From positions 22,764,891 to 22,828,890 of the forward strand of contig JAKSZU010000025.1 in NCBI GenBank assembly GCA_026018925.1: 64,000 nt of DNA, in the 5' to 3' direction. The DNA comes from Tupaia tana. Its lineage: Eukaryota; Chordata; Mammalia; Scandentia; Tupaiidae. The position numbers and the translations under genes were made by a program. Position 1 is the stretch's first letter. Every line of letters begins with the position of its first letter. The notes under the pieces were generated by a model. That model did no database searches and was not told the DNA's origin. It worked only from the letters and a program-made list of their open reading frames with translations. This document shows positions 19,642 to 62,570 of the stretch, piece by piece.

Positions 19642-20163
19642 TTTGAAATAGACCCCAGATTAGTTTCTTTAGGGCGTAGGTTCCATAGCTCAGGCTCCTT
19701 TCCATCGGTTCTCACACCGCGGCCTCTCTGGGTGGAGCAGCTGGCGCTTCAGTTGAACCCAGGTACCTTTCTCTGTGGCTTTCTTCTTTTTCTGGTCATT
19801 TTCCTTCACACGTTTTAGGAAGCTGTCTCTGCTCTTAGAATGGTTAACATGCTCAATACGCACATTCATTCTCTTGCCAAGAATCTTTCTCTTACCTCGT
19901 TTGCGTACCACAGTGCCAACAGCATGCTGGTAACCTTGTAGACTCTTCCGGTTTTGCTGTGATAACATTCGTGGGCATTCCTCAATGTCTACGACATCCC
20001 CTTTCCAGTAGATTTGTATGTATGTTGCCCAAGGAACCATTACATGTTTTCTGAAAGGTCTAGAGAACATACATCGGGTGCTTCTCCTCTTTCCCTTTGT
20101 GTTCGTCATTTTGATTAATTACTGGAAGATGGTGGTTCTGGCCAAAAAAAAAAAAAAAAAAAG
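19642..20163 (-). pseudogene. RPL21: RPL21 processed pseudogene, body inverted relative to its poly(A)
   Basis: The minus-strand frame from 20109 begins [20 protein letters not shown], matching ribosomal protein L21 of the large subunit, and later shows [20 protein letters not shown]. The 5' UTR (CATCTTCCAGTAATT, 20110-20143) is kept. A gap with frame change removes roughly a dozen residues near codon 47, and the C-terminus is scrambled with the normal stop lost, so it cannot encode a working protein. There are no introns. A 20-base A-run (20144-20163) on the plus strand lies beside the 5' UTR, not the 3' end. CCAA(C/T)TGTTATTTTCTT flanks both sides (19625-19641, 20164-20180). This is the signature of twin-primed L1 retroposition with an inverted cDNA body. 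Identity is near certain; the twin-priming mechanism is inferred. Confidence 0.92.
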
Positions 20164-28372: not shown

Positions 28373-28922
28373 TATTTTATTTTTTTTTTTTTACAGGTTT
28401 TTGCCATACGGCGCGTGCATTCACCAGACAGAGAGAGACAGAGAGACAGAAAGCAAAAAATCAAGCCCCCCAGGGGGCATGGCCACATCGCAATCCCTTT
28501 TCCTCCATTCTCTTCTCGGGATCTTGGGCACACACGCACATGCACACGCACCCGGTGTGAGTTTTTTTTCTTTTTTTGGTAGAGGTTTTTGCTATAGGGC
28601 GCGTGCGCTCGCCAGGCAGACAGAGAGACAGAGAGACAGAAAGCGAGAAATCACCCCCCGGGGGGATGGCCACGATGCAATCCCCTCTACTCCATTCTCC
28701 TCTCGGGATCTTGGGCACACACGCACATGCGCCCGGCGTGAGTTTCAGCCACCGGGTCCGGGACTCGAACCACAGTTGACTACGTGGGAGTCCAGCGACA
28801 TAGCCATTACGCTAACCGCTGGTCCCGCCCGGTGTGTTTTAAGCCACCGGGTTCGGGACGTGAACCATGGCCGACTACATGGGAGTCCAGCGACATAGCC
28901 ATTATGCTAATTGCTGGTCCCA
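28373..28922 (-). mobile_element. SINE family A, outer copy of a SINE-in-SINE nest
   Basis: AGCACATCACAG flanks the pair (about 28356 and 28921). The outer copy is read at 28373-28572 (TTTTTGCCATACGGCGCGTG) and 28828-28922 (ACATGGGAGTCCAGCGACAT, TTGCTGGTCCC) and is split by a second copy. Confidence 0.9.
28563..28826 (-). mobile_element. SINE family A, inner young copy
   Basis: CCCGGTGTG lies on both sides (about 28551 and 28828). TTTTTGCTATAGGGCGCGTG, GACTCGAACCACAGTTGACT and TAACCGCTGGTCCC. Many CpGs remain, fitting a recent insertion. Confidence 0.9.
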
Positions 28923-41654: not shown

Positions 41655-41920
41655 GGGAACCAGCAGTTAGCGTAATGGCTATGTCGCTGGACTCCCACGT
41701 AGTCGACCGCGGTTCGCGTCTCGGACCCGGTGGCTTACAACTCACGCCGGGCGCGTGTGCGTGCGTGCCCAAGATCCCGAGAGGAGAATGGAGGAGAAGG
41801 GATTGCGGCGTGACCATCCCCCCTGGGGGGTGATTTCTCGCTTTCTGTCTCTATGTCTCTCTCTGTCTGTCTGGCGAGCGCACGTGCCCTATAGCAAAAA
41901 ACCTCTCCAAAAAAAAAAAA
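41655..41920 (+). mobile_element. SINE family A, young copy 1
   Basis: AAATTGGTAATGA flanks it (41641 and about 41920). The pol III A box TAGCGTAATGG fits TRGYNNANNGG exactly; the B box GGTTCGCGTCT deviates at one position from GGTTCGANNC. CpGs are mostly intact, and it differs from the copy at 48255 by only about six positions. Confidence 0.95.
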
Positions 41921-41933
41921 AATTGGTAATGAA

Positions 41934-48254: not shown

Positions 48255-48526
48255 GGGAACCAGCAGTTAGCGTAATGGCTATGTCGCTGGACTCCCACGT
48301 AGTCGACCGCGGTTCGCGTCTCGGACCCGGTGGCTTACAGCTCACGCCGGGCGCGTGTGCGTGCGTGCCCAAGATCCCGAGAGGATAATGGAGGAGAAGG
48401 GATTGCGGCGTGACCATCCCCCCTGGGGGGTGATTTCTCGCTTTCTGTCTCTATGTCTTTCTCTGTCTGTCTGGCGAGCGCACGTGCCCTGTAGCAAAAA
48501 TCTCTCCAAAAAAAAAAAAAAAAAAA
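48255..48526 (+). mobile_element. SINE family A, young copy 2
   Basis: AAGAAAGAGAATAG flanks it (48240 and about 48525). It is almost identical to the copy at 41655, sharing the unusual GGTTCGCGTCTCGG and TTGCGGCGTGACC variants, so both came from one recent source. Confidence 0.95.
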
Positions 48527-54734: not shown

Positions 54735-54870
54735 TTTGTTTTGGTTGTGATAATGTGTATGGTCATGTCCTTATCTTGACTGATATGCACTGTATTTGTG
54801 CTGGGAAAAGCCATGTTGTACACTGTAAAGATGTATAGTGATTAAATGTAAATAATAGTAAAAATAACTA
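54735..54870 (+). mobile_element. L1 3' UTR end fragment
   Basis: TCTTGACTGATATGCACTG, TGCTGGGAAAAGCCATGTTG and TACACTGTAAAGATGT align with the minus strand of the composite element at about 60470-60550. It ends in an A-rich tail with TAATAGTAAAAATAAC. Confidence 0.7.
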
Positions 54871-60000: not shown

Positions 60001-60100
60001 AAAATGCCCTGTACTACTTCTTTGCACAGTGGTGAAGGTACTGGACTCGCACATAGCAGACCACAGTTAGAGTCCTGGGCTCGGAGGCTTGACAATCACG

Positions 60101-60117
60101 CTGGACACATGATTTTT
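60101..60117. repeat. Target-site duplication, left
   Basis: CTGGACACATGATTTTT, repeated exactly at 62090-62106. The unoccupied site would read TTTTT/AA, the classic L1 endonuclease target. Confidence 0.92.
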
Positions 60118-60138
60118 TTTTTTTTTTTTTTTTTTATT

Positions 60139-60705
60139 TTCTGTATTTTTATTTATTTTATTTTATTTATTTATTTATTTTTTATTTTATTTTTCTCAGA
60201 TTAATTAAATTCATTTTACATAAAGTTCCCATTATGATGTATACAATATACATATATGTATATAGTTTTCAACAGAGAACTCTACTTTTTTTGGTGTTGA
60301 CTGATTCCTCCTTTTGCCCCCCACGCCCTCTTTCTACCACCCTCTCCTGACCACCCACTCCCCTCCCTTACAGGCTCCGGCATCCACATTTATCCTTTCC
60401 GCTATCATATCATCGGATCTTTCTCCTTCTGCCAGAGTGCCGATAATGTTATCATTTTTTTTTTCATTGGACATCTTTACAGTGTACAGCATGGTCCCTT
60501 CCAGCATGAGTATAGTTAACATTAGCCAAGACAATGATACCCCCACATACATCATCTTCAACAGACCACCCTTCACCCCTGTGTCCATCAAACGTGATGA
60601 TCGTTCCCTGAACCGCCCTCCATCATTCATTCCCATTACCTCTCCCGTGCTGTCTCCAGCATCCGCAGTTGCCATCCCTGCGACCATACCCTCCAGATCT
60701 TTCAT
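60139..60705 (-). mobile_element. L1 3' UTR portion of the composite
   Basis: TCTCCAGCATCCGCAGTTGC and ATACCCTCCAGATCTTTCA (60653-60704) align with the antisense L1 at 11325-11375. ACATCTTTACAGTGTACAGC (60471) aligns with the L1 end at 54819. The minus strand has a GGGAGGGGAGTGGG purine run, typical of L1 3' UTRs. Confidence 0.8.
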
Positions 60706-60738
60706 CCTTTTTTTTTTTTTTTTTTTTCCTTTTTCAAT
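60706..60738 (-). repeat. A-rich junction inside the composite
   Basis: A run of about 20 As plus flanking A-rich bases (minus strand) separates the unknown segment from the L1 3' UTR. It may be the remains of a tail from an earlier fusion. Confidence 0.75.
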
Positions 60739-61178
60739 TATGAGCTCATAAAGTTTTCCACAATAGGAAACATAGGTTCTATTCAGGGTTGGGTCAAGGG
60801 TGGGTCTCGTGCAGCTCCGCAGTTGTAGGTGAGTCTCTATGGAGTACAGTTTCAGGAACGCAGTTCTGGTAGGCAGAGACGGTTATCAGCTGATGCAGCA
60901 CAGCATCCATCCTGTGATTACCGAGGATGGTGTTGTGGGGATCTGCAGCGTGAGTCATCCTCGAGTATCTGGCTTCCTTAAGAATGGTAGAATAGTTCTT
61001 ATTTTTCCCTGAGGTAATGCAGGGCTGGTACCATCGCCTTCTCACTGCCCATAGGCAGCGAAAATCCTCCTATACCATACATTTCTCAATTGGTTTAAGA
61101 CATCCAAGGTTTCCTTCTTCTGCTTATATTTGCAAGATCTTAATCCTTGTTTTCGGCTTCAGTTTGCTGCTCGTAACC
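60739..61178 (-). other. Unrecognised ~440-bp segment of the composite
   Basis: Normal base composition and no match that I recognise to L1, LTR or host sequence. Minus-strand frame 60794-61045 (83 codons) has no known domain. It sits where SINE-R sits in SVA. It could be captured host, LTR or L1 5'-UTR sequence. Confidence 0.6.
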
Positions 61179-61739
61179 GCCGGTCACGCGCAGGCCCAGC
61201 GGTCACGGGCAGGCTCGTTGGCCACGCCTGGGCGCAGGCCCGGCAGCCATGCGCGGGCCCGGCGGCCACGCGTGGGCGCATGCCCGGCGATCACGCACAG
61301 GCCCGGCGATCACACACAGGCCCGGCGGCCACGCACGGGCACAGGCCCGGCGGCCACACACAGGACCGGCGGCCATGCTCAGACCTGGTGGCCACTCGCC
61401 AACCTGGGGGTCATGCACAGGCCCGGTGGCCACTCGCAGGCCCGGGAGCCACACGCAGGCCCGGCGTGCGCCGGCCCAGTGACCACGCTCCGGCCCGGGA
61501 GCCATGTGTAGGCGCAGGCCCGGCGGCCATGCACAGGAGCGGGCCCGGCAGCCACACTCAGACCCGGCAGCCACTCGCCAGTCTGGGGGCCATGCGTGTG
61601 CCCAGCGGCCACTCGCAGACCCAGCGGCCATGCGCTGACCCGGCGGTCACGTGTAGGCCTGACGGCCACACGTCAGCCCCAAGCGCGCGCAACCACGCTC
61701 AGGCCCGGCGGCCACGCGCGGGCCCAGCGGGCACACACC
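61179..61739 (-). repeat. GC-rich VNTR, ~19-20-bp unit
   Basis: About 27 imperfect units around GGCCACGCGCAGGCCCGGC (plus strand), some lengthened to about 26 bp. All three plus frames and several minus frames are open because stops are excluded by composition, giving frames of up to 323 codons that are not genes. Confidence 0.93.
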
Positions 61740-61925
61740 AGCCCCCGAGCACGCGAATGCGCGCGGGACCCAGCGCCACCTCCGGTTCGCCTGCCTGGTC
61801 AGAGTGCTGCCAGGCAGCGTCGGCGCCGAGCGCAGGACACACCCAGCGCCGGAGGGGCAGCAGGGGCTGGGCGGCCTCGACTGCGGAACGCGAAGCAGAG
61901 GCACCGCGTGCCCAGAGTCGGGCAG
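61740..61925 (-). other. GC-rich single-copy portion of the composite
   Basis: CpG-dense, non-repetitive. It includes a short imperfect palindrome around CCTGCCTGGTCAGAG and GCTGCCAGGCAG. It may act as promoter DNA, by position only. Confidence 0.6.
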
Positions 61926-62089
61926 CCCCGGTCCCGCGCAGGCCCAGAGGCGGGCGGCCCAGCGCGCCGGCCCCGGTCCCGCGTGCGCCCAGAGGCGGGC
62001 GGCCCCGGTCCCGCGCAGGCCCAGAGGCGAGAGGCCCAGCACGCCGGCCCCGGTCCCACACAGGCCCAGAGGCGGGCGGCCCCGGTCCC
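61926..62089 (-). repeat. Duplicated 77-bp GC module at the composite's 5' end
   Basis: Units of 45, 32, 45 and 32 bp begin at 61926, 61971, 62003 and 62048, each starting CCCCGGTCCC on the plus strand. They form two 77-bp repeats plus a 10-bp start of a third at the insertion edge. Confidence 0.9.
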
Positions 62090-62106
62090 CTGGACACATG
62101 ATTTTT
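62090..62106. repeat. Target-site duplication, right
   Basis: CTGGACACATGATTTTT, identical to 60101-60117. Confidence 0.92.
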
Positions 62107-62240
62107 AATCACTGACTGGAGGAGAAGGGATTGCAGTGTGGCTGTCCCTTCCAGGGGTATGGTTTCACATTTTCCCTCTTTGTCTCTCTCTCTCTTTGGT
62201 GTATGCACATACCCTATTGCAAAAACCTAAAAAAATAAAA

Positions 62241-62570
62241 AAGGAAAGAAAATAGGTTTCTTTGTATAATGCCAAAAAAATATGATTTGGTAATGTAAGA
62301 AAACCAATGTGATAAAATAAAATCACCCTCACACAATGACCTATATCAAAACAAAAGCAAACACAGATAGTAATACCCCTTTCCTCATCACTTAGAACAG
62401 TAGGTTTCATGCAAATTCAGCCAGGGACAGCTGGGAGTTCCTCCTTCTCCAGATATTGAGACGGTCCAATAGAATTCCAGAAATTTCAAAATGCCATCCT
62501 TCGTCTCCCACCCTAGGGAAGAGCAGCACAATTTCCCATTCCCCAGCTGGAAATCCTGCATTGGGGAGCA
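62241..62570. other. Unique sequence
   Basis: Nothing is recognised. Confidence 0.3.

Follow-up and report, generated by a model that had tools for sequence, protein, structure and literature searches.

A putative composite retrotransposon with an SVA-like plan and its own VNTR, inserted in one piece into an older SINE

Introduction

Retrotransposons that are composites built around a VNTR, namely SVA, LAVA, PVA and FVA, are described as hominoid-specific (PMC4432496), and the hominoid composites carry a central, GC-rich VNTR with units of 30-50 bp, of which the 39- and 40-bp types are ancestral (PMC4432496). Titles and abstract beginnings in the open-access literature named no VNTR composite outside primates among the matches listed. 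In this study we analysed a window of 64 kb (the whole stretch of DNA under study), in which a composite element of 1,972 bp occupies positions 60118-62089, with the minus strand as its sense strand. Its sequence suggests that it resembles SVA and LAVA in plan without being a member of either group. The original prediction had called it an SVA/LAVA-like composite whose parts differ from those of SVA and LAVA; the likeness holds for the plan and fails for membership, and the difference in parts was borne out, there being no block of CT hexamers and the VNTR having a period of 19/25 bp rather than 39/40 bp. The element and its surroundings are made up as follows.

60030-62260, plus strand: host SINE broken by the insertion (outer limits approximate, set by eye)
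60101-60117, no strand: poly(A)-side copy of the target site duplication (exact 17-bp repeat)
60118-60194, minus strand: poly(A)/AAAT-rich tail of the sense strand, with 18 pure A at the very end
60195-60703, minus strand: 3′ segment, purine/G-rich, perhaps L1-like, with an A10 run at 60455-60464
60704-60733, minus strand: internal A-rich tract with A20 (60708-60727)
60734-61176, minus strand: 443-bp segment without recognised origin, with no second copy in the window
61177-61739, minus strand: GC-rich VNTR with 24 or more units, 19 bp long and in some cases 25 bp
61740-61904, minus strand: GC-rich single-copy segment of 165 bp (CpG o/e 0.92)
61905-62089, minus strand: 77-bp GC module, 2.3-2.4 copies, subdivided into 32+45 bp; 5′ terminus of the element
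62090-62106, no strand: 5′-side copy of the target site duplication (exact 17-bp repeat), with an L1 endonuclease-type site at the cut

Insertion and target site

The segment 60118-62089 is a single insertion that was copied in as one piece. Read in the sense direction, it begins with GGGACCGGGG and comprises the 77-bp GC module, 165 bp of GC-rich DNA, the VNTR, the 443-bp segment, the internal A20, a 3′ segment of about 510 bp and the poly(A) tail; the five unlike parts that had been predicted within a unit of about 1.97 kb were all recovered. As also predicted, the unit is bounded by exact 17-bp target duplications, CTGGACACATGATTTTT, at 60101-60117 and 62090-62106 (17/17 bases identical), and these two are the sole occurrences of the 12-base core, CTGGACACATGA, on both strands of the window. 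Since the T5 end of the duplication runs into the poly(A) tail, 12 of the 17 bases are unambiguous and the length is certain to within 12-17 bp. Exact 17-mer repeats are not rare in the window, and the duplication alone is thus no proof of insertion: 69 exact 17-mer pairs with a spacing of 300-6000 bp passed a complexity filter and grouped into 23 runs, one being the target duplication and two lying inside the VNTR, while the other 20 look by eye like copies of SINEs.

Stronger proof of one insertion than the target duplication is given by the empty site. When the flanks are joined across the element they make up one host SINE, both sides of which align, in the same orientation, to each of the three copies tried (at 41655, 48255 and 28564), with 72-75% identity on the left and 72-74% on the right. 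The joined flanks restore an abundant host SINE, from which it follows that the unit entered an older SINE in one piece, as had been claimed of it. The sense-strand sequence at the cut, GATT/AAAAATC, agrees with the L1 endonuclease motif TT/AAAA (PMC13174262), elsewhere given as TTTT/A (PMC5860796). A target duplication, a poly(A) tail and an L1 endonuclease-type site, all hallmarks of TPRT, are thereby present at the element, and the L1 machinery, acting in trans, is the likely mover of the composite.

The host SINE itself occurs in two copies, at 41655-41922 and 48255-48521, that are 97.8% identical and lie in CpG-rich blocks, and on these two grounds it was probably active recently. At 28375-28826 two SINE copies adjoin each other in the same orientation, with a likeness of about 82% across 190 bp. 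No tRNA was detected by ARAGORN in three copies of this SINE or in the window, Rfam gave no match in the one copy searched, and a 13-base word of the SINE was not found in the open-access literature.

The 5′ part and the VNTR

The first 913 bp of the element (61177-62089) are rich in GC and CpG. The CpG observed/expected ratio amounts to 0.82-0.92 in the GC module, the GC-rich segment and the VNTR, as against 0.48-0.55 in the 443-bp and 3′ segments and a background median of 0.23 (120 blocks of 500 bp from positions 1-60000 of the window). The duplicated 77-bp GC module of the original prediction was confirmed at 61905/61910-62089 as 2.3-2.4 copies that are 89-90% alike, with internal lags of 32 and 45. 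That the module might be part of the VNTR was considered and rejected, the VNTR profile being absent from 61740-62089. Stable folding of the 5′ end was not above chance (z -1.18; 12 of 100 shuffles fold equally well), and with seven ORFs of the GC-rich part Pfam gave no rows up to an E of 0.1.

Tandem repetition in the VNTR is strongest at a lag of 19, with an identity of 0.605, a value to be set against the 0.41 that 200 dinucleotide shuffles reached at most; the double unit (lag 38) scores 0.509, and lags 39 and 40 fall outside the 12 best. We found 24 units, spaced by 19 bp, in some cases by 25 bp and in two cases by more (34 and 46 bp), so that the predicted array stands at 61177-61739 and the predicted unit of about 20 bp gives way to units of 19 and 25 bp. 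In the plus-strand reading the majority unit is GCCCGGCGGCCACGCGCAG, to which the units have a mean identity of 0.805. There are 89 differences from the majority, 68 of them transitions, and 37 of these transitions are at the CpG positions of the unit, as expected of CpG decay. The units being decayed, the array does not look young. One stretch of 104 bp is repeated 179 bp further on with 77% likeness; higher-order units were nevertheless rejected, the observed order being no better than that obtained by shuffling the units (0.70 vs 0.71).

The 443-bp segment and the 3′ part

The segment of about 440 bp that had been predicted to be of no recognised kind was delimited as 443 bp at 60734-61176 and kept that description. 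Its comparison with L1 3′ regions was not above shuffles. A derivation from protein-coding sequence was rejected for both the 443-bp and the 3′ segment, nothing convincing having emerged in the frames tried. Pfam searches with two ORFs and five of the six 60195-61190 frames, one shortened from 332 to 284 residues, gave only two rows, both below cut-off and both taken as chance: a herpesvirus U83-type family (E 0.16, 12.6 vs 25 bits) and DUF6899 (E 0.17, 13 vs 27 bits). Two of six frames (one of them cut) and one ORF from the two segments, compared with the PDB, returned a sole row at E 0.71, and one 182-aa frame, run against a large protein set, yielded 81 word candidates, of which none reached E 0.01. 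The internal A20 is as expected where parts with tails of their own were joined, and no AATAAA or ATTAAA precedes it.

All ten AATAAA motifs of the element are located in the tail at 60118-60194, whose 18 terminal A are continued by five in the target duplication. Within the 3′ segment, a stretch of 97 bp has a diverged relative at 54749-54845 (E 8.4e-7; score 253 vs a shuffle maximum of 139), so that part of the 3′ segment appears, by sequence comparison, to come from an older repeat interspersed in this genome. The relative is a diverged repeat fragment on the plus strand, and in both sequences the alignment meets an A-rich stretch at the same point.

The original prediction had labelled this end as an L1 3′ UTR with poly(A). 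The poly(A) stands, whereas the L1 label is borderline when set against shuffles, and an L1 origin of the 3′ segment is suggestive at most. The score of the 3′ segment against the 3′-end DNA of an L1 relic at 10.9-11.7 kb was 183, compared with a maximum of 174 in 100 shuffles, and its score against another L1 relic region was reached by 3% of shuffles. Of 200 shuffles, 4.5% in the sense orientation and 5.5% in the antisense orientation reached the score obtained with an L1 3′-end probe; in the same comparison the relative at 54.7-54.9 kb was not outstanding (10%) and the first relic reached 1.5%. An ORF2 probe gave a best E of 7.5 in the element, and no L1 domain was found in Pfam for the frames and ORFs given above. 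The same probe does detect relics of L1 ORF2 elsewhere in the window, all on the minus strand, at 11697-11518 (E 1.9e-9), 7149-7027 (E 2.2e-4) and, weakly, 6426-6328 (E 0.022).

Copy number and a further retrocopy

No second copy of the composite was found within the 64-kb window. Collections of non-mammalian DNA gave no match in viral contigs (searched with one exact 33-base word of the 3′ segment), in phages (whole element) or in plasmids (443-bp part). At 19690-20118, on the minus strand, an open frame matches residues 4-131 of the 142 of ribosomal protein L21 (eL21; E 6.4e-47), with an unlike C-terminal end. It is probably a retropseudogene and, as such, a further sign of L1 activity in trans.

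Origin of the element

Three main readings may be put forward, and we rank them in the order of a composite family, an internally deleted L1 and a one-off retrocopy of a chimeric transcript. Whether the element is one copy of a non-autonomous composite retrotransposon, which would presuppose a multi-copy family, is in our judgement evenly balanced. For this reading speak the target duplication, the restored SINE, the cut site, the poly(A) tail, a VNTR above shuffles, the CpG-rich 5′ parts, the lack of a recognised ORF2 piece and the internal A20; it is weakened by the single copy seen, the decay of the VNTR, the lack of higher-order units and the lack of AATAAA or ATTAAA before the A20. The RNA of such an element would join the GC-rich, repeat-bearing 5′ part and the VNTR to unlike 3′ DNA ending in a cluster of poly(A) signals, and the GC-rich 5′ part would be a likely promoter and CpG island. 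L1 proteins would carry the RNA in trans, the endonuclease would nick the TT/AAAA site within the older host SINE, and reverse transcription starting from the poly(A) tail of the RNA would give rise to the 17-bp target duplication. The internal A20 may be the relic of an earlier 3′ end that was lengthened by fusion or 3′ transduction. A bolder and more doubtful proposal is that a non-ape lineage evolved a VNTR composite family of its own, which would share no ancestry with SVA/LAVA and would combine a GC module, a 19-bp VNTR, captured DNA and an L1-compatible 3′ end with mobilisation by L1 in trans.

An internally deleted or spliced L1 is an unlikely explanation, although it ranks next. The 913-bp GC-rich part would be the 5′ UTR of a host L1, both ORFs would have been lost, the rest would be L1 3′ UTR, and the unit would have moved in the way of a SpIRE. 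The 5′ part is indeed about the size of the human L1 5′ UTR, and the 3′ segment has its borderline similarity to L1 3′ ends (183 vs 174 against the first relic, 3% against the other, and 4.5% of shuffles with the 3′-end probe), though with that probe the antisense orientation is nearly as good (5.5% of shuffles) and the 443-bp segment does not rise above shuffles when compared with L1 3′ regions. No stretch of ORF1 or ORF2 was recognised, either with the ORF2 probe (best E 7.5) or in Pfam, where five frames of 60195-61190, one of them shortened, and one ORF from the remaining frame were searched; no donor and no acceptor matching a simple consensus was found in the unit, though a spliced product need not keep one. 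Target duplications, poly(A) tails and endonuclease sites are all known in SpIREs, but in the human SpIREs described, splicing stays within the 5′ UTR or runs from there into ORF1 (PMC5860796), so that ORF2 should remain.

It is likewise unlikely, and ranked below the deleted L1, that a chimeric or non-coding transcript was retrocopied just once to give the element. In this reading a CpG-island first exon containing the VNTR would have been joined, by splicing or fusion, to further exons and a repeat supplying the poly(A) signal, and then inserted once by L1. Only a single copy was seen in the window, which holds another apparent retrocopy (RPL21), and L1 does insert chimeras of this sort, 17 human insertions with pieces of mRNA or lncRNA fused 5′ of L1 having been reported (PMC13174262); yet the human chimeras are mostly a near full-length L1 behind other RNA (PMC13174262), unlike the element, and a 64-kb window taken at random would be more likely to catch a member of a family. 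Very improbable is an artefact of assembly or alignment, or a chance nesting of several insertions. Misassembly is common in GC-rich tandem repeats, but a single pair of target duplications encloses the entire unit, and its empty site is a SINE. A nested insertion of the inner 443-bp/A20 part was rejected too, the 7 flank bases that it shares being at the 95th percentile of 300 shuffles.

If a composite family is indeed present outside the apes, the SVA plan would have arisen there independently. Such a second origin, unrelated to the first, would show that the combination of a GC-rich VNTR with any 3′ end compatible with L1 comes about repeatedly, and would shed light on which parts of SVA matter for its mobilisation. 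As a mere deleted L1 or one-off chimera, the element would be ordinary.

Comparison with known systems

Like SpIREs, the element has a target duplication, a poly(A) tail and an endonuclease site, and in SpIREs inner sequence is lost by RNA processing (PMC5860796); those described lose sequence only from the 5′ UTR or from the 5′ UTR and ORF1 (PMC5860796), whereas the element has no recognised L1 ORF. Chimeric L1 insertions likewise join unlike RNAs in one insertion (PMC13174262), but they consist of an L1 plus an extra 5′ piece and are mostly near full-length L1 (PMC13174262), unlike the element.

Closer in organisation are the hominoid composites. LAVA too has unique DNA and a piece of L1ME behind its VNTR (PMC4432496), and PVA shows the capture of a piece of a gene. 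LAVA, PVA and FVA, all of gibbons, share with SVA a 5′ CT/Alu-like start and the VNTR; in the element the CT start is absent, the first 400 bases of the sense strand containing neither CCCTCT nor AGAGGG, and an Alu was not recognised. Two 19-base probes for Alu starts, used in place of a full Alu-like query, found no site in the window with up to four substitutions allowed; over the window Rfam gave no match at gathering scores, and within the element it listed no SRP/Alu family up to an E of 1. A match in the element to the L-myc IRES (22 bits vs a gathering score of 60; E 0.1) was sub-threshold and was taken as chance. SVA differs in having 5′ CT hexamers and units of 39/40 bp, compared with units of 19/25 bp in an element that carries no hexamers and no recognised Alu-like part, and the arrays of young SVAs are organised, while the VNTR of the element has no higher-order arrangement of units. 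What the element has in common with SVA is a GC-rich VNTR in the middle, different DNA at the 3′ end, a poly(A) tail, a target duplication and, presumably here, mobilisation by L1 in trans (PMC4432496), and by analogy such an element can work in the manner of SVA without being SVA.
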